From the NCBI GenBank assembly GCA_028683385.1, contig JAQUIJ010000001.1, positions 620,001 to 684,000 on the forward strand: DNA of 64,000 nt, written 5' to 3'. The DNA is from Prolixibacteraceae bacterium (GTDB lineage: Bacteria > Bacteroidota > Bacteroidia > Bacteroidales > Prolixibacteraceae). Each line of letters begins with the position of its first letter. The first letter of the stretch is position 1. This document shows positions 14,185 through 63,431 of the stretch, one piece after another. Position numbers and translations under genes: made by a program. The notes under the pieces were generated by a model. The model did not search any database and was not told the origin of the DNA. It worked only from the letters and a program-made list of their open reading frames with translations.

Positions 14185-14186
14185 GA

Positions 14187-14708: not shown

Positions 14709-14716
14709 GAAATTAA

Positions 14717-16571: not shown

Positions 16572-16704
16572 GTTGACCCTTCAGAATAAATTGAATTGCG
16601 AAAATACGAAAAATTGAAGAGCGAACCGAATTATAATGTTTAATAAGCAGTTTGTTCAGGTTTCATTTTCTTGCCAGAATCCATAAAGGGAAATTCGATA
16701 TTTG

Positions 16705-17538: not shown

Positions 17539-19006
17539 GGTCGTTCTGTATTCTTTCGGTTACCAAACGCGAACTTATGACGGTCATCGGCAGTCCGGTT
17601 CCCGGAACAGTTGATGCACCCACGTAATAGAGGTTATTGAATTTTTCATCTTTGTTTTTGGGCCTGAAACCGCCAACCTGATTGAGATCGTGTGCCAAAC
17701 CAAGCCCACTCCCGCGGTACAAACCAAACATTTCCTCCCAATGTTCAGGAGTTAAAACAACCTTCACTTCGGTGTGTGCATGAAAATCAAAACCGGTCCG
17801 GTCGCTCAAATCCTGAATAATACCGTCGGCAATTTCATGATCGTCGCTCCAATCCGATTTATATCGTAAATCGGGCACCGGACAAAGTATAAAGATACAC
17901 TCTTTACCTTCAGGTGCATAGTCCGGGTTGTGCATCGACTGAATGTTGACGTAATAATAGGGTTTGTCAAGCTTTATTTTGTTCTTAAAGATTTTTCCGG
18001 CATACTCTTCAAAATTCCGTCTCAGGAAATAATTGTGGTGATACATGTTCGGAACTTTGGCGTCCAAACCCAGATAAATCGTCAAAGGAGCCAAAGTCCA
18101 TTTCTTGGCATCCAGTTTTTTTGCTGAAAATGCGGACCGTTTCAAAATCGCCCCACGAAACCAGGCAGCATCGGCATTCACCACAAACAGATCAGCCTTC
18201 CATTCTTTTTCTGAACTGTCAATGAACGAAGTTACCGCACCATTCTTACTCGAAAAACTTGTAATTTCAGTATTGTAATGAATCTGAACTCCCCGGTTTC
18301 CCAATTCCTGAAGGATTCCTTCCACGATCTTGTACATTCCACCTTTCACATTGTAATAGCCGTCATGAACTAATTCGGTGTAATTCAGCAAAGTATATAC
18401 GGCTGGAGTATCGAAAGGAGTCGCTCCAAGAAAGAATCCTACGAGCGAGAAAATCACTTTTACCTCGAACGAGTCAAAATTTCGCTCCATTTCACGCCAC
18501 ATCGAATAGAACATTTTTGGAGCGTGTTTGATCGGAACAGTGGTCAGTTTCAGCAAATATTGCGTCAAAGAATCAAAATTCCGCTGAATCACAATGTTCT
18601 CGGTATCGTGAAATAGTTGTCCGGCAGCCTTCAGGAAACGAGTGATTTTCTTTTCAAAGTCAGGTTCAATATCCTGAAACTCGACAGCAAGCTTTTTTAA
18701 GTTTTTGTATATTAAATAATTTCGCTGGTCGCCCTCAAAATGGACCGAATAAAGCGGATCGAGCTCAACAAATTCAAAAGGCATGGCCATGTTGCAATCT
18801 TTCGCCAGCTCCTGGAACTCATAACTCATGCTAAAAAAAGTTGGTGCCATGTCGAATTTAAACCCACCTTTTTCAAGTAGATTTAACCGGCCTCCTGCAC
18901 GATGGTACTTTTCGACCATCTCAACTTCGTACCCTCTGGTTGAAAGCCGCAGTGCAGTTGTTAGTCCACCTAAACCAGTTCCTATGATAATTACCTTTTT
19001 TTGCAT
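17516..19006 (-). CDS. crtI: phytoene desaturase CrtI
   Basis: CrtI desaturates phytoene stepwise to lycopene. The N-terminal FAD-binding motif GTGLGGLTTALRLS is at residues 8-21, the MVEKYHRAGGRLN second half follows, and the C-terminal NNLYYVGASTVPGTGLPMT region is the conserved FAD contact of carotenoid desaturases. Length 496 is typical. It is the first gene of the crtI-crtB pair and is read away from the crtD operon. Confidence 0.94.
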   Translation of the reverse strand: MQKKVIIIGTGLGGLTTALRLSTRGYEVEMVEKYHRAGGRLNLLEKGGFKFDMAPTFFSMSYEFQELAKDCNMAMPFEFVELDPLYSVHFEGDQRNYLIYKNLKKLAVEFQDIEPDFEKKITRFLKAAGQLFHDTENIVIQRNFDSLTQYLLKLTTVPIKHAPKMFYSMWREMERNFDSFEVKVIFSLVGFFLGATPFDTPAVYTLLNYTELVHDGYYNVKGGMYKIVEGILQELGNRGVQIHYNTEITSFSSKNGAVTSFIDSSEKEWKADLFVVNADAAWFRGAILKRSAFSAKKLDAKKWTLAPLTIYLGLDAKVPNMYHHNYFLRRNFEEYAGKIFKNKIKLDKPYYYVNIQSMHNPDYAPEGKECIFILCPVPDLRYKSDWSDDHEIADGIIQDLSDRTGFDFHAHTEVKVVLTPEHWEEMFGLYRGSGLGLAHDLNQVGGFRPKNKDEKFNNLYYVGASTVPGTGLPMTVISSRLVTERIQNDHGFVPKK

Positions 19007-19141
19007 CTGTTTAATTAATTCATCAAATACTTAAACAAACAAAACGTAAAATGTTTCAGTAATTTACGAATTTATTTTTGGAGTATGTCTTGCTTTTCAT
19101 CTTGACAGAAAAATTATTATTCAAAAGTAACTTTTGAATTT

Positions 19142-19283
19142 AGAAACTGTTTAAAATTTGAAAAGATACCCAAAATCAAAAGAATTACCCCTACCCTAAA
19201 GGGTGATTTTTTGATTTTTCGGGCTCCCTTCAGGGTTCGGGGTAATCCGAAAAATCAAAATGAACTAAATTTAAACAGTTTCT
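19142..19283. repeat. 142-base palindromic element A with terminal inverted repeats
   Basis: The ends AGAAACTGTTTAAA (19142-19155) and TTTAAACAGTTTCT (19270-19283) are perfect 14-base inverted repeats. Nested inside are GATTTTTCGG (19213-19222) and CCGAAAAATC (19247-19256), also perfect. There is no open reading frame. The structure resembles a MITE or a long REP-like hairpin. Confidence 0.65.
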
Positions 19284-19350
19284 TACTTTTTTGCCCTTTT
19301 TACCGTATCTTCCGGTTGAAACTCGCATGTAATGTCATACTGCTAAAATT

Positions 19351-19492
19351 GAGTCCACTCCGAAAAGTCCGAGTTTATTGATTTTCAACTTCGCCACCCC
19401 TGACCCGTAAAGGGGAACTCGTTGAAAATAAATAAACTCTTCAAAGTCCCCTTCAGGGGATTTAGGGGTTTTTGACTTTTCGCAGCAGACTC
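19351..19492. repeat. 142-base palindromic element B, nested inverted repeats
   Basis: Outer arms at 19351-19369 and 19474-19492 match at 16 of 19 positions. Inner arms at 19371-19389 and 19421-19439 match at 18 of 19. The inside holds further C/G-rich pairs such as CCCCTTCAGGGG. It lies in the same non-coding gap as element A and may affect both carotenoid operons, for instance as a transcription block between them. Confidence 0.65.
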
Positions 19493-48690: not shown

Positions 48691-48711
48691 TTCAAAACAA
48701 AAAGCTTGTCA

Positions 48712-50772
48712 ATGATAACAAAAGAACTGATTGCTCCACAAAGTATTGTAGTTGTAGGCGCTTCGAATAATACGACGAAGCCGGGAGGAAAACTTCTGAA
48801 AAATTTGCTTGACAATAATTTCAAGGGCGACCTGTACGTTGTCAATCCAGGTTCGAATGATGTTCAGGGAGTAAAATCCTATCCATCTGTCAGCGAATTG
48901 CCTCCGGTTGAAATGGCCGTTTTGGCTATTCCTGCCGCAGCTTGCGTGGAAGCAGTTGAAATTTTGGCCACACAAAAAGGCACGAAAGGATTTATCATTA
49001 TTTCAGCAGGTTTTAGCGAGGAAAGTGAAGAAGGCCGGATTCTGGAACAGAGAATTGTAAAAATAATTGAAGAAAATAATGCTTGCCTGATTGGCCCAAA
49101 TTGCATTGGTGTCATCACATACGCACACACCAGCGTGTTCACAACTCCTATTCCCAAGCTCGAACAAATGAGTTGTGACCTCATTTCCAGTTCGGGAGCA
49201 ACCGCTGTTTTCATCATGGAATCAGGCATTCCGAAAGGGCTCCATTTTGCCAGTGTATTCTCGGTAGGAAATTCAGCCCAAAACGGCGTTGAAGAAATTC
49301 TCGAATTCATGGACGACGTGTTTAATCCGGAAACCAGTACACGAGTGAAACTACTTTATGTCGAAAGCATTAAAAATCCTGATAAATTATTGAAACACGC
49401 CTCTTCATTGATCCGAAAAGGATGCAAAATAGCGGCCATTAAAGCCGGGAGCAGCGAGGCCGGAAGCCGTGCGGCAGCATCCCACACTGGAGCAATGGCG
49501 AATTCGGATCTGGCTGTTGAGGCCTTATTTCGCAAAGCGGGCATCGTTCGTTGTTATGGCCGCGAGGAATTGACAACCGTAGCCAACATTTTTCACTGCA
49601 AACCAATGAAAGGCAAACGGTTGGCCATCATTACCCACGCCGGAGGACCGGCAGTTATGCTTACCGACGCACTTGAAGATGGAGGACTAAAAATTCCGCA
49701 CATCGAAGATTGCGAAGCAAAAACCAGACTCAAGAACCAGCTTTTTGCAGGTTCGTCGGTCGAAAACCCCATTGATTTTCTGGCAACCGGAAATGCAGAA
49801 CAATTGGCAGCCATTATTGATGCCTGCGAAAATGACTTCGATAAAATTGATGGGATGGCTGTTATCTTTGGTAGTCCGGGACTATCTCCTGTTCGGGATG
49901 TCTACCAGGTTCTTAACGAAAAAATGCGCACCTGTAAAAAACCTATATTTCCAATTCTTCCTTCCCTGATCAATGTGAAGGACGATATGGCTTATTTTAT
50001 TTCTGAAGGGAACGTAATCTTTCCGGATGAAGTTTTGCTTGGAAAAGCGTTGACGAGTATTTTGAAGACCGCCAAACCTTCCGAAGAAAAAATATTCCTT
50101 GATGATATAGATATTCCTGAAATCCGACGGATTGTCGATCGGGCTGAAGATGGATTTCAATCGCCTGAAACAATCCATCGGTTGTTTGCTGCTGCAGGAA
50201 TTCCAATGGTTCACGAAATCACCGTTACAACGGAAGATACAGCTATTGAAGCAGCAAAAAAACTGAGATTCCCACTCGTAATGAAAGTAGTTGGCCCCAT
50301 ACATAAAACTGATGTTGGCGGAGTTGTCCTGAATGTTCAGGATATGGAAACTGTTCAGCGCGAATTCAAACGGCTGATTCAGATCAAAGATACGACTGCA
50401 GTTTTGATGGCTGAAATGGCTTCAGGAATTGAACTTTTTCTGGGGGCTAAATATGAGGACAAGTTTGGACACATTATTTTGTGCGGCATCGGTGGTATTT
50501 TTGTTGAGGTATTCAAGGATGTTACTTCCGGCCTTGCACCACTAACCATGTGCGAAGCTGCTGCCATGATCAAAAACCTACGTGCATACCGCATTATTAA
50601 AGGCTACCGTGGAAAAAATGGGGTGAAGGAACGTAAGTTTGCCGAAATTATGGTACGCTTATCAACGCTTCTTCGCTTTGCTGTCGAAATCAAAGAACTG
50701 GACATCAATCCACTTCTTGGCGATGGGGACAAAATTATCGCTGTTGATGCCCGGATTAGGATTGAGAAATAA
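48712..50772 (+). CDS. ADP-forming acetyl/acyl-CoA synthetase (fused alpha-beta)
   Basis: This 686-residue enzyme joins the two subunits of ADP-forming acyl-CoA synthetase: an N-terminal CoA-binding Rossmann domain (SIVVVGASNNTTKPGGKL), a succinyl-CoA-ligase-like domain with the phosphohistidine at H258 (AAASHTGAMANSD), and a C-terminal ATP-grasp domain (KLRFPLVMKVVGPIHKTDVGGV). It makes ATP while releasing an acid from its CoA ester, the energy step of amino acid fermentation. ATG 48712 is preferred to the TTG two codons earlier. Its place near the paaK/Vor locus suggests aryl- or branched-acyl-CoA substrates as well as acetyl-CoA. Confidence 0.92.
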   Translation: MITKELIAPQSIVVVGASNNTTKPGGKLLKNLLDNNFKGDLYVVNPGSNDVQGVKSYPSVSELPPVEMAVLAIPAAACVEAVEILATQKGTKGFIIISAGFSEESEEGRILEQRIVKIIEENNACLIGPNCIGVITYAHTSVFTTPIPKLEQMSCDLISSSGATAVFIMESGIPKGLHFASVFSVGNSAQNGVEEILEFMDDVFNPETSTRVKLLYVESIKNPDKLLKHASSLIRKGCKIAAIKAGSSEAGSRAAASHTGAMANSDLAVEALFRKAGIVRCYGREELTTVANIFHCKPMKGKRLAIITHAGGPAVMLTDALEDGGLKIPHIEDCEAKTRLKNQLFAGSSVENPIDFLATGNAEQLAAIIDACENDFDKIDGMAVIFGSPGLSPVRDVYQVLNEKMRTCKKPIFPILPSLINVKDDMAYFISEGNVIFPDEVLLGKALTSILKTAKPSEEKIFLDDIDIPEIRRIVDRAEDGFQSPETIHRLFAAAGIPMVHEITVTTEDTAIEAAKKLRFPLVMKVVGPIHKTDVGGVVLNVQDMETVQREFKRLIQIKDTTAVLMAEMASGIELFLGAKYEDKFGHIILCGIGGIFVEVFKDVTSGLAPLTMCEAAAMIKNLRAYRIIKGYRGKNGVKERKFAEIMVRLSTLLRFAVEIKELDINPLLGDGDKIIAVDARIRIEK

Positions 50773-52114: not shown

Positions 52115-53401
52115 ATGAAAAAACTATTTTTCTTACTCCTCCTAATTAGTACCCAAATCTCTTATAGTCAGGAAACCAAACCCAAAGAAACATCACTCGA
52201 ATTTTATGGCTTCGTTCGATTTGAATCCTTTTTCGATTCATACAAAGGATTAAACGCTGGCAATGATTTATTTTTTATTGCTCCGCTATACGCAGGAACT
52301 GATGCCAATGGGAAGCACATTAACCAGACTCCAACCTATAATTTTGCATCGATGGCAACCCGTTTTGGTGTTCGCGTTACTGGTCCTGAGATTTTCAAAG
52401 CGAAAACATCAGTCAACATTGAGGCCGATTTTGCAGGCGACCTTGGAAACAATCCGGCTCTATTTCGGGTAAGACAGGCAAATGCTGTTTTCACCTGGAA
52501 GAAATCGTCGTTGCTGGTTGGCCAAACCTGGCATCCATTCTGGGGTGGAAAAGTCTTCCCAACGGTTGCTGGGTTGAATACCGGCTCTCCATTTCAGCCG
52601 TTTAACCGAAGTCCACAGGTCAGGTTCGACTATAAACCCAGCACAAAACTGATCCTTTCGGCCGCCATGGTTGGCGAATTTCAATATAAATCGTATGGGT
52701 TCTCGAAGATTGAGACCATGACCATTGAGAAATTAGATATTTTTAACCGCAATGCAGGAATTCCTGAAATGGTTGGCAATATCGAAATGAACAATGGAGG
52801 ATGCACTTTAGGCGCTGGGGTTAGCCTGAAATACATTTTACCAACGCTCTATACCGTTGGTAGTTCCGGCAAATATGTGTCAAACGAAATGGTTCAGGCG
52901 ACATCGTTTGTCGGATATGGTCAGTATGTAAAAAAGATGTTCACCATCAGGGCTAAAGCGGTGTTGGGCCAGAATATGACACACTTATGTATTCCCGGCG
53001 GATATGGCGTAAAAACACTAGACAAAGCGACAGGAGCATTGACTTACACTCCTTACAATTCGTTCACCAGTTTTATAAATGCGGTATACGGTAAAAAATA
53101 TCAGGTTGGCCTTTTCGGTGGTTATTTGAAAAACCTGGGAACTGCTGATGCTCTGTATAATTTTGGAAGTTCAACGGCTCCAACTGTTGTTACTCCGGGA
53201 TTACTCCCCAATGTAGCTTCAATTTACCGTGTTGCCCCTCACTTCGCGCTGAATATTTCAAAAATACGCTTCGTAGCTGAATATGAATTAACTTCAGCAG
53301 AATATGGAACCGGCAACATTGATTTGAATGATGGATTATATGCAACAGGTGTTAATGCAACGAATCACCGGATTTTGCTCATGTTAATGTATTCTTTCTA
53401 A
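52115..53401 (+). CDS. outer-membrane porin, DcaP-like
   Basis: The ATG at 52115 starts a typical signal peptide (MKKLFFLLLLISTQISYSQ); two earlier in-frame ATGs (52073, 52091) would put extra residues before it. The 428-residue protein reads as a beta-barrel: LEFYGFVRFESFFDSYKGL, the ASMATRFGVRVTGPE strand pair and a final aromatic strand NHRILLMLMYSF. DcaP-type porins take up small anionic or aromatic acids. It is 11 bases before paaK, so uptake of the ligase substrate is the likely role. Confidence 0.82.
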   Translation: MKKLFFLLLLISTQISYSQETKPKETSLEFYGFVRFESFFDSYKGLNAGNDLFFIAPLYAGTDANGKHINQTPTYNFASMATRFGVRVTGPEIFKAKTSVNIEADFAGDLGNNPALFRVRQANAVFTWKKSSLLVGQTWHPFWGGKVFPTVAGLNTGSPFQPFNRSPQVRFDYKPSTKLILSAAMVGEFQYKSYGFSKIETMTIEKLDIFNRNAGIPEMVGNIEMNNGGCTLGAGVSLKYILPTLYTVGSSGKYVSNEMVQATSFVGYGQYVKKMFTIRAKAVLGQNMTHLCIPGGYGVKTLDKATGALTYTPYNSFTSFINAVYGKKYQVGLFGGYLKNLGTADALYNFGSSTAPTVVTPGLLPNVASIYRVAPHFALNISKIRFVAEYELTSAEYGTGNIDLNDGLYATGVNATNHRILLMLMYSF

Positions 53402-53412
53402 ACCGAACTATC

Positions 53413-54720
53413 ATGTATTGGGAAAATGAACTTGAAACTCTGAAGCGGAACGATCTCGAAAAACTTCAGGTAAAAAGGCTGAAAAATACCATTCAGTCGG
53501 CCATGAATTCGCCGTATTACGGAAATCTGTACAAGCAAATGGGTTTGTCGTCTGATTCAGTAAAATCGGTTTCCGACATTCAAAAACTACCCTTTACCAC
53601 CAAACAAAACCTGCGCGAGAATTTCCCATACGGATTTTTAGGTTTACCAACGAAAGAATTGATTCGACTGCACAGTACCAGCGGAACCACCGGCAACCCG
53701 ACTGTAATTTTTCATAACCGCCACGACATTGATTCATGGGCAAACTTAATGGCACGTTCGCTTTATTGCGCCGGAGTGCGCGATACTGACGTTTTTCAAA
53801 ACATATGCGGATATGGGCTATTCACCGGAGGACTTGGGTTTCAATACGGAGTTGAACGACTTGGCTGCCTGAGTATCCCGGCCGGAGCGGGTAATAGTTC
53901 GCGCCAGATTAAATTGATGCAGGACTACGGAACAACTGCCATACATGCCATCCCGAGTTATTTGAACCGTTTGTATGAAGTTTTTCTGGAAGAGGGACTC
54001 GACCCACGAAAAGATACCAAACTGCATACCTTTGTGATTGGTGCCGAACCACATACCGAAGAACAACGCCAGCGTATTGAAGAAATGTATGGCGTAAAAG
54101 CATACAATTCTTTTGGCCTGACTGAAATGAATGGCCCGGGTGTTGCTTTCGAATGCACCTACCAAAATGGCTTGCACATTTGGGAAGATGCCTATTTGGT
54201 CGAAATTATTAATCCTGAAACGCTGGAACCTATTGTTGACGGCGAAATTGGCGAATTGGTTCTGACTACACTCGATCGTCAGGCCATGCCACTAATCCGA
54301 TACCGCACCCGCGATTTGACACGAATTTTGCCAGGAACATGTGCTTGTGGCCGAACCCACATTCGCCTCGACCGTATTACTGGACGAAGTGACGATATGT
54401 TTATCGTAAAAGGATGCAACATTTTCCCGATGCAGATTGAAGGCGTTCTGATGAAAATTCCGGAAGTAGGTGCCGATTATCTGATAACTTTAAAAACGAT
54501 TGACGGAAACGATGAAATGATCATCGAAGTAGAAGTGAAAAAAGATTGGTTCAATGGCGACATCTCCCGGCTGGACAAATTGACGAAACAGTTAACCGCT
54601 TTAATTCGCGACGAAGTTTTGGTTAAGCCAATCATCAAGCTCGTTGAGCCCAATTCGCTACCGAAGCCGGAAGGAAAAGCTGTTCGGGTCAAGGAACTCC
54701 GCGTAGCACTTAATTCATAA
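53413..54720 (+). CDS. paaK: phenylacetate-CoA ligase, copy 1
   Basis: A 435-residue member of the PaaK branch of adenylate-forming enzymes. The phosphate-binding loop is STSGTTGNPT at 88-97, and the family features [25 protein letters not shown] and CACGRTHIRLDRITGRSDDM are all present. It activates phenylacetate or a similar aryl acid with ATP and CoA. It is directly followed by a two-domain ACT protein, an arrangement repeated downstream. Confidence 0.93.
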   Translation: MYWENELETLKRNDLEKLQVKRLKNTIQSAMNSPYYGNLYKQMGLSSDSVKSVSDIQKLPFTTKQNLRENFPYGFLGLPTKELIRLHSTSGTTGNPTVIFHNRHDIDSWANLMARSLYCAGVRDTDVFQNICGYGLFTGGLGFQYGVERLGCLSIPAGAGNSSRQIKLMQDYGTTAIHAIPSYLNRLYEVFLEEGLDPRKDTKLHTFVIGAEPHTEEQRQRIEEMYGVKAYNSFGLTEMNGPGVAFECTYQNGLHIWEDAYLVEIINPETLEPIVDGEIGELVLTTLDRQAMPLIRYRTRDLTRILPGTCACGRTHIRLDRITGRSDDMFIVKGCNIFPMQIEGVLMKIPEVGADYLITLKTIDGNDEMIIEVEVKKDWFNGDISRLDKLTKQLTALIRDEVLVKPIIKLVEPNSLPKPEGKAVRVKELRVALNS

Positions 54721-54746
54721 CTCATCATATCTAATTCATAACTCCC

Positions 54747-55181
54747 ATGGCATATCAGGTCTCCATATTTCTGGAAAATAAAATCGGCCACCTTGAACGG
54801 GTTACTGCCGTATTAAAAGCTGCCAAAATCGACATCCGCACCATGAACCTGAACCATACCGCCAATGGTTGGGGAATCTTGAACCTTGTTGTTTCAAATC
54901 CTGAACTTGCGCATAGCCTGTTGCTTGAGAAAGGTCTGTCGGCGGCCTTGCGCGAAATTGTGGTTATCGAAATGATCGACCAACCCGGAGGATTGGATGA
55001 TCTGCTTAAAGAAATTGTGAACGCAGGTGTCAATTTCACCAATGCATACGGACGATCGGGCTATGAAAATAAAAATGCCTACTTTGTTATCGATCCTGAG
55101 GATGTGACTCAGGCGAAAAAAAAGCTGCTGGATGCCGGACTAAATATCATGTCCGATCAGTCCATTTATGGAACCAACTGA
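54747..55181 (+). CDS. tandem ACT-domain protein, copy 1
   Basis: The 144 residues hold two ACT domains (about 1-70 and 71-144): SIFLENKIGHLERVTAVLKAAKIDIRTMNL and IDQPGGLDDLLKEIVNAGVNFTNAYG. ACT pairs bind amino acids and control enzymes. It lies between two paaK genes, starting 26 bases after the first. Feedback by phenylalanine is a natural guess. Confidence 0.9.
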   Translation: MAYQVSIFLENKIGHLERVTAVLKAAKIDIRTMNLNHTANGWGILNLVVSNPELAHSLLLEKGLSAALREIVVIEMIDQPGGLDDLLKEIVNAGVNFTNAYGRSGYENKNAYFVIDPEDVTQAKKKLLDAGLNIMSDQSIYGTN

Positions 55182-55219
55182 TACATTATCATGTATCACA
55201 ACAATAAAAACTCAATACA

Positions 55220-56518
55220 ATGATCTGGAACGAAAAAATAGAATGTGCGAGCCGCGACGAAATGCGCGACATTCAATCGGAACGACTAAAAGAAACAGTC
55301 ACAAGAATTTACCACAATGTGCCCAGCTACAGGCAAAAAATGCAAGCAGTTGGCCTTGTTCCCGATGATATAAAATCGGTCGACGATCTGAGTAAACTGC
55401 CATTCACCCTCAAAACCGACTTACGCGACAACTATCCGTTTGGGTTATTTACCGTACCCATGAGCGAGATTGTGCGTATCCATGCGTCTTCAGGAACAAC
55501 CGGGAAACCAACTGTTGTTGGATACACCCGAAAAGATCTGAACAATTGGGCCGAAATGATAACCCGTGGACTTTGCATGGCAGGTGTCCATCGTGATGAT
55601 ATTGTTCAGGTAGCTTATGGCTACGGACTATTTACCGGCGGTCTTGGAATGCACTACGGTTGCGAAAATCTGGGCGCATCGGTTATCCCGATTTCAGGAG
55701 GAAATACCGACAAACAGCTTCAACTGATGCAAGATTTTGGCACCACGGTATTGGCTTGTACGCCATCGTATTCGCTCCATTTGGGTGAAGAATTGGCGGC
55801 AAAAGGTATTAAAAAGGAAGACCTGAAATTGCGTATCGGCATTTTTGGTGCCGAACCCTGGACCGAAAATATGCGCAAGGAAATTGAAGCAAGTCTTGGA
55901 ATCAAGGCCATCGATATATACGGGTTAAGTGAGATTATGGGCCCAGGCGTTTCGTGCGAGTGCGAACATCAGGCCGGAATGCACATCATGGAAGATCATT
56001 TTATTCCTGAAATTATTGATCCGATTACCTTACAACCATTACCTGCCGGTGAAGTTGGCGAACTGGTTTTTACCACCATCACCAAAGAAGGTATTCCGCT
56101 AATCCGTTACCGCACGCGCGATCTCACCCGCCTGAACTACGAAAAATGTGCCTGCGGACGTACCTTGGTGCGCATGGAAAAATGCAAAGGCCGCAGCGAC
56201 GACATGCTGATTATCCGCGGTGTAAATGTATTCCCATCGCAAATTGAAAGCGTGTTACTGGAAATGAGCGAAACGGCTCCGCATTATTTGCTTATTGTTG
56301 AACGTGAAGGTAACTTAGACACGCTGAAACTGATGGTTGAAGTTCAGGAACAGTTCTTCTCCGACGAAATCAGGCAATTGGAAGCTTTGCGCAAAAAAAT
56401 TAAGAACAAACTCCAAAGCACACTTGGAATCTCGGTAGATGTAAAACTGGTCGAGCCGAAAACTATTGAACGCACCGCTGGAAAAGCAAAACGTGTAATT
56501 GACAACCGTAACTTGTAG
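55220..56518 (+). CDS. paaK: phenylacetate-CoA ligase, copy 2
   Basis: A second PaaK of 432 residues with the loop [10 protein letters not shown] at 89-98, [39 protein letters not shown] and [13 protein letters not shown]. It is clearly a paralogue of the first ligase but differs at many positions, so it may prefer another aryl acid such as 4-hydroxyphenylacetate or indoleacetate. The gene begins 38 bases after the first ACT gene. Confidence 0.93.
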
Positions 56519-56530
56519 GAGGACCTAATC

Positions 56531-56959
56531 ATGATTATCAAACAACTATCTGTATTTCTCGAAAATAAAACAGGAAGACTGAATGAAGTAACTCAACTTC
56601 TTGGCAATGCCGGTATCAACATGTCGGCAATGAGCCTGGCCGACACTTCCGAATTCGGAATTTTGCGCATGATCGCATCTGAACCTGAAAAAGCACTTTC
56701 AATCCTGAAAGAGTCCGAATTTTCAGTCAGGCTGACCGATGTGGTTTGCCTGAACAGCCCGAATGAGCCAGGTGCACTTGCCAGAGCATTGAACATTCTT
56801 TCCGGAGAAGGTGTATTTATTGAATATTTATATGCTTATTCGATGGATAATAAGACAGCCAATATTGTGCTGAAGCCCGATAACATTCAGAAATGTATTG
56901 AAGTCCTTCAGGCTCACAAACTGGAATTGGTGAGTGCAAGTGATATGTACAAAATATAA
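56531..56959 (+). CDS. tandem ACT-domain protein, copy 2
   Basis: A 142-residue two-domain ACT protein (SVFLENKTGRLNEVTQLLGNAGINMSAMSL; NSPNEPGALARALNILSGEGVFIEYLYAY). An AGGAGG sequence lies nine bases before the ATG, one of few such sites here. It is related to, but not identical with, the first ACT protein, so each paaK has its own ACT partner. Confidence 0.9.
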   Translation: MIIKQLSVFLENKTGRLNEVTQLLGNAGINMSAMSLADTSEFGILRMIASEPEKALSILKESEFSVRLTDVVCLNSPNEPGALARALNILSGEGVFIEYLYAYSMDNKTANIVLKPDNIQKCIEVLQAHKLELVSASDMYKI

Positions 56960-57000
56960 ATTCCTTCCCGGTTACGAAACAGTCCTGTCGGTTCGTTTGT

Positions 57001-57008
57001 TATCTTTG
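57001..57008 (+). promoter_or_regulatory. -7 promoter element upstream of pheA
   Basis: TATCTTTG fits TAnnTTTG perfectly. The -33 position has TTA rather than TTG. A hairpin lies between it and the gene. Confidence 0.5.
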
Positions 57009-57050
57009 CTGATGGTTTTCCGGAAGGATGTAAGGATTTTTACCTAAATT

Positions 57051-57070
57051 GTCCCGGCTTTTACCGGGAC
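57051..57070 (+). terminator. GC hairpin followed by T-rich DNA before pheA
   Basis: GTCCCGG (57051-57057) and CCGGGAC (57064-57070) form a 7-base stem followed by TTTTACT. It may end the porin-paaK operon or, lying downstream of the putative promoter at 57001, act as a leader attenuator of pheA. Confidence 0.5.
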
Positions 57071-57089
57071 TTTTACTAATATATAGAAG

Positions 57090-57926
57090 ATGAAGAAAAT
57101 AGCTATCCAGGGAATTGCAGGTTCTTTCCACGAAGATGCAGCAAGAAGATATTTTGAGGATGAAATTGAAGTGGTCGAATGCAAATCCTTTACCAGCGTT
57201 TGCAATTTAATTGATACCGATCAGGTTAATATTGCCGTAATGGCCATCGAAAACTCGATCGCCGGCAGCTTATTGCAAAATTACGCCCTGATTCGCGACT
57301 ATCATCTGAAAATTATCGGTGAGATTTATATCCACATCCAAATGCACCTGATGGCCAATCCGGGTGTAGCGAAAGAAGACATCAAAACCATTTATTCGCA
57401 CCCAATCGCGATTAAACAGTGTGCCGAATACCTCGAAAGTCAATTTCCAAATGTTCACATCATCGAAAATCAGGACACTGCAGCTTCAGGCAAACTAGTT
57501 CACGACCAAAAGCTAACGGATGCCGCCGCAATTGGAAATCAACGCACTGCAGAGCTTTACGAACTGGATATACTTGATTCGGGCCTCGAAACAAACAGGC
57601 AAAATTATACCCGGTTCCTGATTTTATCGAAACATGCCAGGCACAACGACTTGGCCAATAAGGCCTCTGTATGCTTCGAAGTAGGTCACTATTACGGTGC
57701 ATTGGCCAATGTCTTGAATACTTTTGCCGAGAATAAAATTAACCTGACGAAAATACAATCGGTTCCAATCATTGGGAAACCAAACGAGTACACTTTCCAC
57801 ATTGACGTGGAATGGGATTCATTAGAAAATTACGAAAAAGCTCTCCATGCCATCTTGAAAAATGTATCGAGCTTATCAGTTTTAGGAGAATATGAGCGAG
57901 GAGAATTAGCTATTCACAATCAGTAA
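57090..57926 (+). CDS. pheA: prephenate dehydratase with C-terminal ACT domain
   Basis: The monofunctional enzyme (278 residues) turns prephenate into phenylpyruvate. Residues 1-180 are the catalytic domain, with IQGIAGSFHEDAA, ENSIAGSLLQNY and the NYTRFLIL motif whose TRF (174-176) is essential. Residues 190-275 are an ACT domain; the usual ESRP becomes QSVP here, so feedback by phenylalanine may be altered. There is no chorismate mutase domain. Flavodoxin and an aminotransferase follow. Confidence 0.94.
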   Translation: MKKIAIQGIAGSFHEDAARRYFEDEIEVVECKSFTSVCNLIDTDQVNIAVMAIENSIAGSLLQNYALIRDYHLKIIGEIYIHIQMHLMANPGVAKEDIKTIYSHPIAIKQCAEYLESQFPNVHIIENQDTAASGKLVHDQKLTDAAAIGNQRTAELYELDILDSGLETNRQNYTRFLILSKHARHNDLANKASVCFEVGHYYGALANVLNTFAENKINLTKIQSVPIIGKPNEYTFHIDVEWDSLENYEKALHAILKNVSSLSVLGEYERGELAIHNQ

Positions 57927-57937
57927 AATAAAATATT

Positions 57938-58462
57938 ATGAGCAAAATTGGATTATTTTTTGGTCCTGAAAAAGGTTCAGTTCACCGTGTTGCCGAAAAA
58001 GTAAAAGCAGCTTTGGGCGAACAGAATGTAGAAATGATATCGGTAAATGATGCTGTATTTTCTGATCTGGAAAAGTTCGATCGCATCATTTTTGGAATTT
58101 CTACCGTTGGAAAAGAAACCTGGGATTCAAACTATTCAAATACCGATTGGAGTAAATTCTTCCCCAACATCAGCAAAGTAGATTTCTCGGGCAAAACAGT
58201 TGCAATCTTCGGATTGGGCGACCACATTACTTATGCAAGCTATTTCGTCAATGCGATGGGCATGTTGGCCAAAGATCTTCAGAAAAACGGTGCAACCATT
58301 GTTGGCAAGGTCGATCCTTCAGGCTATGAATTTGATGAGTCGGAGGCTATTTTCGATGGTATGTTTATTGGGCTTCCGATTGATGAAGATTTTGAACCGG
58401 AACTAACCGACGAACGTGTTGCAAACTGGATTTCCGGCATAAAACCAGCGTTCGGGCTATAA
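57938..58462 (+). CDS. flavodoxin
   Basis: A 174-residue flavodoxin of the long-chain type, 11 bases after pheA. The aromatic loop (STVGKETWDSNYSNTDW) and the later GLGDHITYASYFVNAMG are clear FMN-binding segments. The phosphate-binding P-loop reads GPEKGSVHRVA rather than the usual G-x-x-T-G-N-T, a marked change. As a low-potential carrier it could feed or drain the ferredoxin-linked oxidoreductase encoded 2 kb downstream. Confidence 0.92.
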   Translation: MSKIGLFFGPEKGSVHRVAEKVKAALGEQNVEMISVNDAVFSDLEKFDRIIFGISTVGKETWDSNYSNTDWSKFFPNISKVDFSGKTVAIFGLGDHITYASYFVNAMGMLAKDLQKNGATIVGKVDPSGYEFDESEAIFDGMFIGLPIDEDFEPELTDERVANWISGIKPAFGL

Positions 58463-58667
58463 AAACCCGAAACATGATAAAATACAGGTTCACCTTTTAA
58501 CCTGATTTTCTGTCAAATCAAAACCTGAAGCTATTGCCAGCTTTCAATTTAAAATCCGGAGGCTCTTGGTTTTTCCGAATTGAGAAAGCTGTTTTGCAAT
58601 ACCTTGGGTACATTTGATTTATAGCAAATACTTTGCTTATTTTTACTCAACATTTTCAGCATTTTAG

Positions 58668-59981
58668 ATGAATAATACACCTGTACAACAAGAAATCGTA
58701 AAAAAATACATCGATCAGCTTCAGATTAAAGATCTTGGTAAAGCTTCGATTCGTGAAATTGTAGCGTTAATCAATTTCATTGAAGAAGAAAGCAAAACAA
58801 AGTTTATCCGCATGGAAATGGGCGTTCCCGGACTGCCGCCTGCAAAGGTTGGTGTTGCAGCCGAAATTAAAGCACTCGAATCGGGAGTTGCTTCCATTTA
58901 TCCGATGATGGATGGCATTAAACCGCTCAAGTACGAAGCTTCCCGTTTCATCAAACTATTTATGGATGTTGATGTTGAGCCCGCAAGTTGTATTCCAACC
59001 TGCGGATCGATGCAGGGAACTTTTGCCGCTCTTTTGGTTGCCGGAAATGTTGACCAGAAAAAAGATACCACCTTATTTATCGACCCGGGCTTCCCTGTGC
59101 AAAAACAACAAATGACTGTGATGGGTCATAAATATGAATCGTTCGATGTGTTCGACTTCCGTGGCGAAAAACTTCGTGCGAAACTCGAATCCTATTTATC
59201 TCAGGGAAATATTAATTCAATCGTCTATTCGAACCCAAACAATCCAAGCTGGATTTGTATGACGGAAGAAGAACTTCAGATTATTGGCGAACTTGCTACC
59301 AAATACGATGTAATTGTGATGGAAGATCTGGCCTACTTCGGAATGGATTTCAGAAAAGATTTGTATTCTCCCGGAAAACCACCTTATCAACCAAGTGTAG
59401 CCAAATACACCGATCATTACGTGCTGTTCATTTCAGCTTCAAAAATATTTTCATATGCCGGTCAGCGAGGCGCCATCATGGCTATTTCGAATGCGCTGTG
59501 GAATCGTCAGTATGAAAACCTCCAGATTCGTTTTGGAAGCAAACCGTTCGGGTTCACCATTGTGATGCAGGTTTTGTATGCTCTTTCTTCCGGAATTACG
59601 CATTCAACCCAACATGCTTTGGCAGCTATGCTTAAGGCAGCCAGTGATGGTGAATTCAATTTCGTTGAAGACGTAAAAGAATATGGCCGAAAAGCCAAAA
59701 TCATGAAAGATTTGTTTGTGAGCAACGGGTTTCAGGTTGTTTACGAAAAAGATGGGGACGAACCGATTGCCGATGGATTCTATTTCACCATTGGCTATCC
59801 GGGGATGACCGGAGGTAAACTTCTGGAAAATCTGCTGTATTATGGAATCAGTGCGATTACGCTAAAAAATACAGGCAGCGAAAAAGAAGGACTGCGTGCA
59901 TGTGTATCGCATGTTAAACGCGATCAATTTGACGATTTGGAAAAACGACTGAGACTTTTCAACGAAAACTTTGGACATTAA
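58668..59981 (+). CDS. class I/II PLP-dependent aminotransferase
   Basis: The 437-residue enzyme has the PLP lysine at K259 in ISASKIFSYAGQRG, the SNPNNPSW loop and DLAYFGMDF before it. In Bacteroidota this type sits beside pheA and is thought to transaminate phenylpyruvate and related 2-oxo acids to aromatic amino acids. Its gene follows a 205-base gap containing weak hairpins, and the next gene starts one base after its stop. Confidence 0.9.
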   Translation: MNNTPVQQEIVKKYIDQLQIKDLGKASIREIVALINFIEEESKTKFIRMEMGVPGLPPAKVGVAAEIKALESGVASIYPMMDGIKPLKYEASRFIKLFMDVDVEPASCIPTCGSMQGTFAALLVAGNVDQKKDTTLFIDPGFPVQKQQMTVMGHKYESFDVFDFRGEKLRAKLESYLSQGNINSIVYSNPNNPSWICMTEEELQIIGELATKYDVIVMEDLAYFGMDFRKDLYSPGKPPYQPSVAKYTDHYVLFISASKIFSYAGQRGAIMAISNALWNRQYENLQIRFGSKPFGFTIVMQVLYALSSGITHSTQHALAAMLKAASDGEFNFVEDVKEYGRKAKIMKDLFVSNGFQVVYEKDGDEPIADGFYFTIGYPGMTGGKLLENLLYYGISAITLKNTGSEKEGLRACVSHVKRDQFDDLEKRLRLFNENFGH

Positions 59982-59982
59982 A

Positions 59983-60552
59983 ATGACTTCCATCGACTAT
60001 CTCCTTCCTGAATATAGAAGAACCTTGGTTCAGTTAAAAAAATTCTTCGCCACGAAGAGTCCTGAAAAACTGAAAAAAGGTGAGCATTTTCTGGATTATG
60101 GCGACCAGTCACAAAAATTAGGAATCGTTTTAGACGGAATATTATATTCCACCTACTTATCAGAAACAGGGCAGGAATGGATTTCCAACTTTTTTTATCC
60201 GCCCAACCATGCCATCATTACCAGCCACGAGAGTTTTATGCTCGAAAGCAAATCGACTGAATCAATCAGGGCTTACGAAGATTCGACCATTATTTACATT
60301 ACAAAAACGGAGTACGACGATTTAACAAAGCAAAATCCGCAATTGGAACATATGGTCAGGGTTTTGGCCGAAGCAAGTTATGTCCAAGCGCTCAAAAGAG
60401 TCTATGATTTTCAGTCGTTAACCGCGGCTCAACGTGTCAAGAAGTTTGTAGCAGAAAATAATACACTTGTACAAAAAGTACAAAGACAACACATTGCATC
60501 ATATTTGGGAATTCATCGGAATATATTCACCAGAGTGTTGCATAAAATCTGA
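59983..60552 (+). CDS. CRP/FNR-family transcriptional regulator
   Basis: From the ATG at 59983 (the TTG at 59971 lies within the aminotransferase gene) the protein has 189 residues: a cyclic-nucleotide-binding-like beta-roll with GEHFLDYGDQSQKLGIVLDGILYS, a dimer helix and a C-terminal helix-turn-helix (QHIASYLGIHRNIFTRVL). No FNR-type cysteines are seen. A palindrome 5 bases after its stop is a candidate binding site for it in front of the oxidoreductase operon. Confidence 0.9.
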   Translation: MTSIDYLLPEYRRTLVQLKKFFATKSPEKLKKGEHFLDYGDQSQKLGIVLDGILYSTYLSETGQEWISNFFYPPNHAIITSHESFMLESKSTESIRAYEDSTIIYITKTEYDDLTKQNPQLEHMVRVLAEASYVQALKRVYDFQSLTAAQRVKKFVAENNTLVQKVQRQHIASYLGIHRNIFTRVLHKI

Positions 60553-60556
60553 TTTC

Positions 60557-60570
60557 GCAACATTTGTTGC
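60557..60570. promoter_or_regulatory. palindrome upstream of the oxidoreductase operon
   Basis: GCAACATTTGTTGC has two 6-base arms around two bases. It lies 23 bases upstream of the -7 element at 60593 and overlaps the TTG position, as expected for a regulator site. Confidence 0.45.
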
Positions 60571-60592
60571 GTAGTCAAAAAATAAGATCATC

Positions 60593-60600
60593 TAGTTTTG
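60593..60600 (+). promoter_or_regulatory. -7 promoter element of the oxidoreductase operon
   Basis: TAGTTTTG fits TAnnTTTG, with TTG 23 bases upstream and a leader of about 53 bases. Confidence 0.5.
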
Positions 60601-60659
60601 TAATAACAAGCTCAGTTCGAAGGATTACAATAATCTTTTAAAAATATAAAAATCTAATT

Positions 60660-60884
60660 ATGGCAAAAGTTATTGGAGCGGTAGTGGTTGACAACGAAGA
60701 GTGCAAAGGATGTGGTCTTTGCGTCGTTGCGTGTCCTCAGGACGTCCTGAGTCAAAACAAGCAGGTTAACAGCCGTGGATATCATTATTCGTTTATGAAA
60801 AACCCTGAAGCCTGCATCGGTTGTTCAAATTGTGCCACCGTTTGTCCCGACACTTGCATTACGGTTTACCGGGTAAAGTTATAA
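60660..60884 (+). CDS. 2[4Fe-4S] ferredoxin-type delta subunit of 2-oxoacid:ferredoxin oxidoreductase
   Basis: The 74-residue protein has two complete cluster motifs: C15, C18, C21, C25 and C52, C55, C58, C62. It wires electrons from the thiamine site to soluble ferredoxin or flavodoxin. A separate delta subunit is typical of VorB-type enzymes. The next gene follows after a gap with a hairpin repeat. Confidence 0.94.
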
Positions 60885-60893
60885 GAAGTTTGA

Positions 60894-60943
60894 AGTGCCT
60901 AAAGTTCGAAGTTTAACTCTATACACTCCGAACTATAGGCACT
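60894..60943. repeat. imperfect hairpin repeat inside the oxidoreductase operon
   Basis: Arms 60894-60912 and 60925-60943 match at 16 of 19 positions (AGTGCCTAAAGTTCGAAGT on the left). The same AGTTCGAAGTGCC-type sequence occurs at 43286-43317. It separates the delta and alpha subunit genes. Confidence 0.6.
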
Positions 60944-60985
60944 CTAGTCACTTGTTAAAATAAGCAACAAACAAATTCAAAGAAT

Positions 60986-62071
60986 ATGGGTGAATTAAGA
61001 TTAATGAAGGGAAATGAAGTCATTGCCGAAGCAGCTATTCGTTGCGGTTGTGACGGTTATTTCGGATACCCCATAACTCCCCAATCGGAAGTAATGGAAA
61101 CCCTGATGGATCGCGAACCCTGGAACGAAACCGGAATGGTTGTTCTTCAGGCCGAAAGTGAGATTGCCTCCATCCACATGGTTCACGGAGCAGCCGGCTC
61201 CGGAAAAAAAGTAATGACATCTTCTTCAAGCCCTGGAATTAGCTTAATGGCTGAAGGAATATCATACCTCGCGGGAGCCGAATTACCCTGCCTGATTGTA
61301 AATGTTCAGCGTGGAGGTCCAGGCCTGGGAACTATCCAGCCATCGCAGGCCGACTATTGGCAATCGACCAAAGGCGGCGGACACGGCGATTACCGCCTGA
61401 TTGTACTCGCGCCATCTTCGGTTCAGGAAATGAACGACTTCGTTGAATTGGGCTTTAAACTGGCTTTCAAATACCGAAATCCGGCCATGATCCTCACTGA
61501 TGGTGTAATTGGTCAGATGATGGAAAAAGTGGTTCTGGCTGATTATATTCCAAGATTGACCGACGAAGAAATCAATGAAAAATATGGTTCATGGGTAACC
61601 AACGGACGCAAGCATAACCGGCAACGTAACATCATTACTTCTCTTGAAATGGATTCAGTAAGAATGGAGAACAACAACCTCCGCTTGCAGGAAAAATATG
61701 CCAGAATGGAAGAAGAAGATGTGCTTTTTGAAGAAATACAGTGTGAAGATGCAGAATACTTATTGGTAGCTTTTGGTTCTTCGTCGCGTATTTGCCAGAA
61801 AGCTGTAGATCAGGCACGTGAGAAAGGTATTAAAGTTGGCCTTCTTCGCCCGATTAGCTTATTCCCATTTCCAAAGAAACCAATTGCAGTGCTTGCCAAA
61901 CAAGTAAAAGGCATGTTGGTTGTGGAAATGAATGCCGGACAAATGATTGAAGATGTTCAGCTTGCCGCTGGATGTTCTATTCCGGTAAAACATTTTGGTC
62001 GTATGGGCGGTATCATTCCAAGCCCGGGAGAAGTGGTTGAGGCCCTTGAACAAAAACTGATAGGAGGATAA
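60986..62071 (+). CDS. vorB: 2-oxoacid:ferredoxin oxidoreductase alpha subunit (VorB-like)
   Basis: The 361-residue protein opens with LMKGNEVIAEAAIRCGCDGYFGYPITPQSE, the conserved pyrimidine-binding domain of the alpha subunit, and continues with GAAGSGKKVMTSSSSPGISLM and NVQRGGPGLGTIQPSQAD. The C-terminal third is the transketolase-like domain II. Length and subunit order match the enzymes usually called VorB (branched-chain 2-oxo acids); aryl pyruvates are possible in view of the neighbours. Confidence 0.92.
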   Translation: MGELRLMKGNEVIAEAAIRCGCDGYFGYPITPQSEVMETLMDREPWNETGMVVLQAESEIASIHMVHGAAGSGKKVMTSSSSPGISLMAEGISYLAGAELPCLIVNVQRGGPGLGTIQPSQADYWQSTKGGGHGDYRLIVLAPSSVQEMNDFVELGFKLAFKYRNPAMILTDGVIGQMMEKVVLADYIPRLTDEEINEKYGSWVTNGRKHNRQRNIITSLEMDSVRMENNNLRLQEKYARMEEEDVLFEEIQCEDAEYLLVAFGSSSRICQKAVDQAREKGIKVGLLRPISLFPFPKKPIAVLAKQVKGMLVVEMNAGQMIEDVQLAAGCSIPVKHFGRMGGIIPSPGEVVEALEQKLIGG

Positions 62072-62074
62072 TTT

Positions 62075-62875
62075 ATGGAACTGAAAGATATAATCAACCC
62101 CAATAACCTGGTTTACGAAAAACCAAAATTACTGACCGAAAATACAATGCATTATTGCCCGGGCTGTAGTCACGGAGTAATACATCGGCTGTTGGCTGAA
62201 GTAATCGAAGACATGGGCATTCAGGATAAAACCATTGGTGTTTCGCCAGTTGGGTGCGCTGTTTTTGCATACAATTACATCGAAATCGATTGGCAGGAAG
62301 CCGCTCACGGAAGAGCTCCGGCAGTTGCAACCGGTATTGTCCGCACGAATCCTGACAAGGTTGTTTTCACCTATCAGGGCGATGGCGATTTGGCATCAAT
62401 TGGAACAGCTGAAATTATGCATGCCTGCAACCGCGGCGAAAACATGGTTGTCATCTTCGTAAACAATGGTATCTATGGTATGACCGGCGGACAAATGGCT
62501 CCAACTACTTTGCTTGGGCAAATTACTGCCACAACTCCAAACGGCCGCGATGCCGGACGAAACGGATACCCGTTAAGAATTACTGAATTGATCGCTCAAT
62601 TGCCCGGAACATCCTACGTAACACGTCAGTCGGTACACACTCCGGCAACAATTCGTAAATGCAAAAAAGCAATTACCAAGGCGTTTCAGGCGGCAATCGA
62701 TAAAAAAGGAACCTCCTTCGTTGAGATTGTTTCGACCTGCAACATGAACTGGAAAATGACACCGGTAAAAGCCAACGAATGGATGGTCGAAAACATGTTC
62801 CCCTTCTACGTTCCCGGCGATTTGAAGGACAGTTCGAAGAATGATCCTGAAAGTTATACACCACTTAAAAACTAA
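62075..62875 (+). CDS. 2-oxoacid:ferredoxin oxidoreductase beta subunit (thiamine pyrophosphate-binding)
   Basis: The 266-residue subunit carries the thiamine motif GDGDLASIG (102-110) to VNNGIYGMTGGQ (129-140) and cluster-binding cysteines in HYCPGCSHG and PVGCAVF. It starts three bases after the alpha gene stop. With the alpha, gamma and delta subunits it converts a 2-oxo acid and CoA to an acyl-CoA, CO2 and reduced ferredoxin, or the reverse. Confidence 0.94.
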   Translation: MELKDIINPNNLVYEKPKLLTENTMHYCPGCSHGVIHRLLAEVIEDMGIQDKTIGVSPVGCAVFAYNYIEIDWQEAAHGRAPAVATGIVRTNPDKVVFTYQGDGDLASIGTAEIMHACNRGENMVVIFVNNGIYGMTGGQMAPTTLLGQITATTPNGRDAGRNGYPLRITELIAQLPGTSYVTRQSVHTPATIRKCKKAITKAFQAAIDKKGTSFVEIVSTCNMNWKMTPVKANEWMVENMFPFYVPGDLKDSSKNDPESYTPLKN

Positions 62876-62879
62876 GACG

Positions 62880-63431
62880 ATGACCGAAGAAATCATTATA
62901 GCCGGATTTGGCGGACAAGGCGTACTTTCAATGGGGAAAATATTAGCCTATTCGGGCGTGATGGCCGATCAGGAAGTGGCCTGGTTCCCATCGTACGGAC
63001 CGGAAATGCGCGGAGGAACAGCCAATGTAACCGTGATCCTGAGCGAAAGCCGCATCAGCTCGCCCGTTCTGAACGAATACGATACAGCCATTATCCTGAA
63101 TCAGCAATCCATGGATAAATTTGAGGCGATGGTAAAACCTGGTGGTGTATTAATTTACGATCCAAACGGAATCATCCATCCACCCAAACGCACCGACATA
63201 AACATCTACAAAATTGAAGGAACATTGATCGCTGCCGAACTGGGCAATGTGAAAACCTTCAACATGGTGGTTTTGGGCGCTTATCTGAAAGCTAAACCAG
63301 TGGTTAAAATGGAAAGCGTTGAAAAGGGATTGCAGAAATCGCTTCCAACACGACACCACTACCTGATTCCGATGAACCTAGAAGCCGTACAAAAAGGGTT
63401 CGAAAGTCTGGAATTGGTGCAGGCTGTTTAA
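62880..63431 (+). CDS. 2-oxoacid:ferredoxin oxidoreductase gamma subunit
   Basis: From the ATG at 62880 the subunit has 183 residues; an ATG at 62841 lies inside the beta gene and is rejected because the conserved domain starts at IIIAGFGGQGVLSMGK. PSYGPEMRGGTANVTVILS is the other hallmark of the gamma domain, which shields the CoA site. It is the last gene of the operon and is followed by a terminator. Confidence 0.94.
   Translation: MTEEIIIAGFGGQGVLSMGKILAYSGVMADQEVAWFPSYGPEMRGGTANVTVILSESRISSPVLNEYDTAIILNQQSMDKFEAMVKPGGVLIYDPNGIIHPPKRTDINIYKIEGTLIAAELGNVKTFNMVVLGAYLKAKPVVKMESVEKGLQKSLPTRHHYLIPMNLEAVQKGFESLELVQAV

Follow-up and report, generated by a model that had tools for sequence, protein, structure and literature searches.

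In Bacteroides, the gene for an AMP-forming ligase, which has been assayed as an arylacetate-coenzyme A (CoA) ligase, lies together with that for indolepyruvate oxidoreductase (IOR), and a role in the biosynthesis of aromatic amino acids has been suggested (PMC13285125, 2026). Here we describe a related gene cluster in a 64,000-nucleotide stretch of DNA (the window) from a Prolixibacteraceae bacterium (assembly GCA_028683385.1, contig JAQUIJ010000001.1, positions 620,001 to 684,000), which is part of contig C23 of a 5.9-Mb genome estimated to be 100% complete. Similar to the Bacteroides system, the cluster places AMP-forming ligase genes beside a 2-oxoacid:ferredoxin oxidoreductase. In contrast to that system, it encodes two ligases (PaaK1 and PaaK2), a Vor-type enzyme, a prephenate dehydratase (PheA) and a flavodoxin. 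Two stand-alone tandem ACT proteins (ACT1 and ACT2) are also encoded. The kind of pathway is already known, whereas no precedent was found for pairing the ligase with an ACT protein: the searched literature, outside which most subscription journals lie, contained no account of it, and the term 'ACT domain' does not occur in the main text of PMC13285125 or in the available part of PMC9012536.

Separately encoded ACT proteins also serve acetolactate synthase, as IlvH/IlvN, and the N-terminal motif S-x-x-L-E-N-x-x-G is common to E. coli IlvH and the proteins described here. The target in the present case, however, is predicted to be an acyl-CoA ligase and not an enzyme that depends on thiamine pyrophosphate (TPP), and ACT_8, to which ACT1 and ACT2 belong, is another family. 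ACT domains also occur in a regulator of AMP-forming acyl-CoA synthetases: AcuB (Bateman plus ACT domains) controls AcuC and thereby acetyl-CoA synthetase, acting via a deacetylase and sensing adenine nucleotides (PMC13121692), whereas here ACT pairs alone are encoded directly beside the ligase. In the amino-acid-regulated ACT-GNAT acetyltransferases, ACT domains likewise bring amino acid control to an enzyme, but are fused to it (PMC6434083); no such enzyme is found among the 13 genes of the cluster.

The reading that we favour, with a probability of about one half, is that the cluster is a reversible organic-acid/amino-acid module, mainly assimilative, in which the ligases are gated by the stand-alone ACT proteins. 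An imported aryl (or branched) acid would be converted to its CoA thioester by the AMP-forming PaaK1 or PaaK2, the thioester would be carboxylated to a 2-oxo acid by the ferredoxin/flavodoxin-dependent Vor-type oxidoreductase, and the 2-oxo acid would be transaminated to the amino acid. PheA would make phenylpyruvate de novo, so that the two routes would meet at the 2-oxo acid. The tandem ACT protein would most likely bind the end-product amino acid and switch its ligase off (or on), in the manner of IlvH/IlvN with acetolactate synthase. A preliminary description of the locus had proposed ligand-controlled ligases feeding such a pathway; it is right in outline and partly supported by the evidence below.

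PaaK genes are nearly constant neighbours of ACT_8 genes

The link between PaaK and ACT genes, more than the whole cluster, is the general finding of this study, as PaaK is nearly constant beside ACT_8. Four ACT searches, from each of which the best 30 matches were taken, gave 120 ACT loci, some of which overlap or come from the same genome and are therefore not independent; in 115 of these (85 of 90 plus 30 of 30) a PaaK gene lies within the 1.5-kb flanks of the ACT_8 gene. The five loci without a flanking PaaK comprise two in a single genome (G096), one at a contig start (L170), one in which PaaK lies about 4 kb upstream of the ACT gene (L107) and one with no PaaK nearby (L174). After unique assignment there were 165 distinct PaaK/ACT pairs, 160 with PaaK first and five with ACT first, and in the former the gap between the two genes has a median of 18 bp and is no longer than 60 bp in 125. 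The proposal that each ligase has its own ACT protein extends beyond the window, as an ACT gene lies alongside either type of ligase and both clades of ligase (see below) have partners.

Numbers of PaaK and ACT genes are equal in 12 of the 19 genomes compared; among the rest, three have a third ACT gene and four have extra, partly weak matches to PF14535. In G096 the linkage is broken, yet two ACT_8 and two PaaK genes are kept, on four contigs, and one of the ACT genes lies downstream of a chorismate synthase-like gene. An orphan ACT1-like gene (L040, 8771-9202; same genome as L153) follows a chorismate synthase-like gene after 270 nt, the two PaaK genes of that genome being located elsewhere. 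Frames of 312 aa in L093 and L097, considered as PaaK-ACT fusions, were rejected since they are open frames upstream of the ACT gene.

A ligand-type motif in the first ACT unit

The ACT_8 family (PF19571, 'ACT domain pair') spans both units of each protein, covering residues 3-139 of ACT1 and 1-140 of ACT2. The motif S-x-F-x-E-N-x-x-G is nearly invariant in the first unit: among 120 sequences (118 partners plus ACT1 and ACT2 of the window, one being a repeat) S, E and N are each found in 119 and F and G in all 120, while 108 have a second N. Residues S6, L9, E10, N11 and G14 of E. coli IlvH align with the motif, and the counterpart of IlvH N29 is N30 in ACT2 but D29 in ACT1 of the window; N11, G14 and N29 are residues that we take to bind valine in IlvH. 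Ligand-type residues are conserved in the first ACT unit, and ligand binding is predicted here. Profile searches ranked the solved structure 2f06 first, followed by YdjB and aspartokinases, with IlvH (2f1f) as a weak match (E 9e-4). Scores for ACT2 fell below the cut-offs of the IlvH models (25.6 against 119 for NF008864, 21.1 against 56.9 for TIGR00119), and ACT1 matched neither model.

Draconibacterium/Maribellus loci contain a third ACT gene before PaaK2. Its otherwise invariant glycine is threonine in L138, L139, L141 and L144, which suggests a sensor that has lost its ligand. A third ACT gene is also present in genome G542.

It could be argued that the ACT proteins make no contact with the ligases and sense amino acids for some other target, such as the oxidoreductase, the symporter found in relatives or a transcription factor, the link to PaaK reflecting a shared transcription unit. 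The solitary ACT1-like gene after the chorismate synthase-like gene, the unlinked PaaK and ACT genes of G096 and the threonine-bearing third ACT are all consistent with this view. It should be emphasized, however, that PaaK is the constant neighbour of ACT_8 in the loci described above, while Vor/Ior-like genes are present in 12 of 33 loci of the taxonomic order, and 18 of 46 ACT1 loci have the symporter. We consider a different target unlikely, and infer that the ACT protein contacts its ligase.

The link is absent from aerobic phenylacetate catabolism

In a phylum sample of 395 genomes, with PaaK defined as a match to TIGR02155 at E<=1e-60, PaaK and ACT_8 occur together in 76 genomes, PaaK alone in eight, ACT alone in four and neither in 307. 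Two of the four ACT-only genomes have weak matches, and the other two are incomplete, the genes lying near contig ends. PaaA/PaaC of the aerobic epoxidase are present in 131 of the 395 genomes, including seven of the eight with PaaK alone, but in none of the 76 with PaaK and ACT, nor in any ACT_8 genome; the window's genome has no PaaA/PaaC (PF05138) match at E<=1e-10. The remaining 124 of the 131 lack PaaK at the threshold used; the PaaK search scores few candidates per genome, and PaaK genes without an ACT partner are therefore perhaps under-counted.

Six of the eight loci without ACT have aerobic paa genes next to PaaK. Among these, L217 (by Pfam name), L219, L220, L221 and L223 carry homologues of PaaA, PaaB, PaaC and PaaE, and L222 carries PaaE only, near a contig end; the stretches around PaaK in L218 and L224 contain no aerobic paa genes. 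With the exception of that in L224, the ACT-less ligases share 45-49% identity with PaaK2 of the window and are mutual nearest neighbours in the tree. Eight of 14 named control genomes contain PF14535, and two of these eight, Bacteroides ihuae and Methanosarcina acetivorans, contain ACT_8 as well. Thus, although a PaaK-type ligase is shared with the aerobic paa operon, in which no ACT partner was found in the sample, the view that the ACT-linked ligases are not of the aerobic catabolic kind is supported.

The gene cluster and its conservation

The cluster comprises 13 genes on the + strand, from 52073/52115 to 63431, in the order porin-PaaK1-ACT1-PaaK2-ACT2-PheA-flavodoxin-aminotransferase-CRP-ferredoxin-VorABG (Table 1). 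Gene list, strand and place are as in the preliminary description; the count of twelve given there was too low, because the small 2x[4Fe-4S] ferredoxin is a separate gene. An ADP-forming acyl-CoA synthetase gene upstream is probably associated with the cluster. The start of VorG was placed at the methionine of MTEEIIIAG by comparison with L039.

Table 1. Features of the cluster and its upstream neighbour (positions in the window; scores in bits).
Feature	Position	Strand	Evidence and remarks
ADP-forming acyl-CoA synthetase	48706..50772	+	PF13607, PF13549 and PF13380 above cut-off; upstream of the span in the preliminary description
Outer-membrane porin-like protein	52115..53401 (ORF open from 52073)	+	function by resemblance; no Pfam match
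PaaK1, AMP-forming aryl-acid-CoA-ligase-like, type 1	53413..54720	+	PF14535 84.4, PF00501 52.6
ACT1, stand-alone tandem ACT protein	54747..55181	+	PF19571 61.8 (cut-off 23.5)
PaaK2, AMP-forming aryl-acid-CoA-ligase-like, type 2	55220..56518	+	PF14535 122.1; TIGR02155 618
ACT2, stand-alone tandem ACT protein	56531..56959	+	PF19571 118.2; solved relative 2f06, E 1.6e-48
Terminator-like hairpin and T-run, pheA leader	57051..57074 (stem 57051-57070)	+	19 nt from stem to start codon
PheA, prephenate dehydratase with ACT domain	57090..57926	+	PF00800 191.2 (cut-off 25.2)
Long-chain flavodoxin	57938..58462	+	TIGR01752 164 (cut-off 146.75)
Class I/II pyridoxal phosphate-dependent aminotransferase	58668..59981	+	PF00155; best solved relative 3g0t
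CRP/FNR-like regulator, weak match	59983..60552	+	PF00027 26.0, below cut-off 27.5
2x[4Fe-4S] ferredoxin / oxidoreductase delta subunit	60660..60884	+	PF00037, PF13237
VorA (VorB family by NCBIfam name), 2-oxoacid:ferredoxin oxidoreductase subunit	60986..62071	+	NF005507 531.7 (cut-off 399)
VorB (as named here), TPP-binding oxidoreductase subunit	62075..62875	+	PF02775 72.9
VorG (as named here), gamma subunit of the oxidoreductase	62880..63431	+	PF01558 124.8

A scan with an ACT1 alignment gave 46 loci, some cut by contig or stretch ends. These are mostly from Prolixibacteraceae/Bacteroidota, among them Sunxiuqinia, Draconibacterium, Mariniphaga, Maribellus, Puteibacter and Gaoshiqia, the others being Propionivibrio, Accumulibacter, deltaproteobacterial, chloroflexal and spirochaetal records; ACT1 identity is 85-91% in the five closest named loci. 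PaaK1 lies directly upstream of ACT1 in 45 of the 46, with a porin homologue upstream of PaaK1 in 34. Among the 33 loci that have at least 7 kb of downstream sequence, PaaK2 follows in 23, accompanied by PheA (22), aminotransferase (22), flavodoxin (21), ferredoxin (21), VorA (21) and CRP (12), and in many loci a further gene, for a membrane protein, is inserted after ACT1 and before PaaK2. The preliminary description had made its reading depend on conservation of gene order in relatives, and in all 23 the genes present follow the order of the window, a conservation far beyond chance. The remaining ten consist of nine with PaaK1-ACT1 and one (L153) with ACT1 alone; in L126, which has no PaaK2 downstream of ACT1, a PaaK2-ACT2 pair lies on the opposite strand. 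An ACT1 match is found in 59 of 80 genomes of the window's family group, with at least 40% identity in 34 of 80, and the cluster is therefore common but dispensable. In a set of 33 loci of the taxonomic order, a homologue of the aminotransferase is present in 10, mostly near Vor- or Ior-like genes. In Mariniphaga anaerophila (L136), CRISPR-like repeats followed by Cas2-, Cas1- and Cas4-like frames lie at about 13500-19400, downstream of PaaK1-ACT1-symporter.

The cluster's PheA is the one PF00800 match in the genome, in keeping with the proposed supply of phenylpyruvate from prephenate by this enzyme, although it scores below the stricter NF008865 (205.8 against 219). An ACT match at C23:161506, considered as a second PheA, was rejected since the gene reads as PurU. 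In the ACT domain of PheA, the ESRP stretch of the solved enzyme 2qmx is QSVP in the window and in five of six relatives searched, the search pattern finding no match in L149; feedback of PheA by phenylalanine may differ from the usual.

The 130 bp between ACT2 and PheA contain the terminator-like hairpin, which is kept in all ten aligned sequences (the window and nine relatives), and a CCCG-type stem is found in 16 of 28 pheA leaders. Above the hairpin, near 56990-57010, lies a box resembling TTCGTTTGTTATCTTTGC, which most of the ten sequences share but L118 does not; the leader has no Rfam match. The 205-bp gap between the flavodoxin and aminotransferase genes has a weaker terminator-like site. 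Because of these two sites the cluster is probably not one operon. It may consist of several transcription units in which read-through into pheA is controlled separately, the hairpin being a possible attenuator of that gene.

Two old ligase types and a possible change of ACT partner

The preliminary description spoke of duplicated PaaK-ACT pairs. Two pairs are indeed present, but the wording misleads, since the duplication dates far back: the ligases share about 46% identity (46% between PaaK1 of a close relative, L117, and PaaK2 of the window's genome), and when ligases are assigned to PaaK1 or PaaK2 according to which of the window's proteins they match best, the two types fall into separate, fully supported clades that span several phyla. 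A recent tandem duplication was rejected on both grounds. Both ligases exceed the cut-offs of PF00501 and PF14535, and are thus AMP-binding enzymes with the AMP-binding_C_2 domain; they are the only PF14535 genes found in the genome. Neither reaches the cut-off of TIGR02155, the equivalog of PaaK phenylacetate-CoA ligase (PaaK1 439.8 and PaaK2 618.0 against 646.3), and we therefore call them aryl-acid-ligase-like. Judged by their divergence, the two may have different substrates. The best solved relative of PaaK1 is 4r1l, whose sequence entry also holds 4rvn. The latter is BT_0428 of Bacteroides thetaiotaomicron, and 4R1L is cited from the same species (PMC9516798). A PaaK1-type ligase of B. 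thetaiotaomicron is therefore numbered next to the BT0430-0429 oxidoreductase.

In the ACT tree, which is built on few columns and in which long branches meet, 34 PaaK1 partners form one clade, whereas nine, all from the window's taxonomic order, nest among the PaaK2 partners; these nine lack the second N, having Q (seven) or R (two). The simplest reading of this topology would be one change of ACT partner by PaaK1, after which an ACT gene still lies alongside.

Direction and substrates

A sodium:solute symporter gene lies near PaaK1-ACT1 in the 18 of 46 loci referred to above, two from Propionivibrio included; three were scanned and identified by PF00474 and the rest by similarity, a 26% match in L137 being excluded. 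L066 and L071 have a related symporter after PaaK1-ACT. In seven loci (L123, L125, L127, L128, L132, L137 and L146) the symporter beside ACT1 is replaced by a membrane protein of 230 aa that belongs to no clear family, and the window itself has neither. A symporter beside PaaK1-ACT1 fits acid uptake.

A mainly oxidative module is one alternative to an assimilative one. Amino acids would be transaminated, the 2-oxo acids converted to acyl-CoA by the Vor-type enzyme and the thioesters to acid and ATP by the ADP-forming synthetase, leaving the PaaK ligases only to salvage excreted acids and the ACT proteins to prevent a futile cycle. The synthetase gene is directly joined to ACT-PaaK-aminotransferase-ferredoxin-Vor in three genomes of the taxonomic order (L044, L054 and L055), in L116-L121 and L132 it is found upstream of the porin and PaaK1 genes, and L155 has it at its edge. 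The occurrence of ADP-forming ligases in the neighbourhood of such enzymes, and the reversibility of the steps, have been described (PMC13285125). Among single mutants of B. thetaiotaomicron in the oxidoreductase clusters BT0332-329, BT0430-0429 and BT2836-2837, only that in BT0430 lowered 4-hydroxyphenylacetate, which indicates oxidative flux there and argues against a purely assimilative reading (PMC10746243). In the window, however, a gene on the opposite strand separates the synthetase from the cluster, and a fermentation needs neither two AMP-forming ligases, nor the importer-type symporter of the relatives, nor the sole PheA. Both directions are possible; we favour assimilation with modest confidence, and regard a mainly oxidative role as improbable but not negligible.

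The substrates, in turn, might be branched-chain or other short acids rather than aryl acids, with isovalerate, 2-methylbutyrate or isobutyrate leading to leucine, isoleucine or valine. The family name of NF005507, whose cut-off VorA exceeds, is 3-methyl-2-oxobutanoate dehydrogenase VorB and points to branched-chain 2-oxo acids, although the name is no substrate test. The resemblance of the ACT motif to IlvH points the same way, as does a separate IorA-like gene, one of three further PF01855 genes elsewhere in the genome that were read, from length and sequence, as pyruvate, 2-oxoglutarate and IorA-like oxidoreductases. Set against this are the PaaK-type ligases and PheA within the cluster, and the published assays showing that the Bacteroides ligase next to IOR is specific for aryl substrates. 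Indeed the VOR-related HpdDEFG acts on hydroxyphenylpyruvate, and a methanogen VOR is cited as having some activity with phenylpyruvate (PMC13285125). A module confined to branched or short acids thus appears quite unlikely.

The evidence against a gated, assimilative module

Several observations weigh against an assimilative module with ACT-gated ligases. Genome G540 has two PaaK genes and one ACT gene, its PaaK1 having no ACT gene nearby, and several genomes of family f135 carry a second, divergent PaaK but one ACT. Among the ACT_8 matches listed, no frame is long enough for a PaaK-ACT fusion. Within a clade the distances between PaaK proteins correlate with those between ACT proteins (0.82 for 43 PaaK1 pairs, 0.80 for 75 PaaK2 pairs), a relation confounded by species descent, and in nine loci with two pairs the cognate correlations (0.21 and 0.29) are not consistently above the cross values (0.435 and -0.033), which therefore lend no support to pair-specific coevolution. 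Mutual information between PaaK and ACT columns (165 pairs, effective number 67) gave a mean of 5.31 for the top five z values, hardly outside the range of 4.53-5.29 obtained when partners were permuted ten times within clades. In ACT1 of the window, the second N of the motif is replaced by D. In addition, 68 of the 76 genomes with PaaK and ACT belong to one family group, and the table of co-occurrence therefore overstates independence. Finally, the ADP-forming synthetase and the flavodoxin also fit the oxidative direction.

Implications for anaerobic aryl-acid metabolism

Taken beyond the window, we tentatively propose that ACT_8 proteins are stand-alone allosteric subunits that serve AMP-forming aryl-acid-CoA ligases and are widespread among anaerobes of several phyla. 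Such proteins would mark assimilative ligases, be absent from aerobic catabolic ones and exert direct control in trans by the end-product amino acid, with each ligase paralogue having its own sensor and one lineage having changed sensors. If true, this would assign a function to a family of paired domains for which Pfam describes the fold only, and would explain how bacteria able both to synthesize aromatic amino acids and to take up aryl acids choose between the two. The PaaK and ACT genes are both present in Bacteroides ihuae, and f135, the dominant family of the phylum sample, commonly has the pair; the finding may therefore bear on which organisms make or consume phenylacetate and hydroxyphenylacetate.

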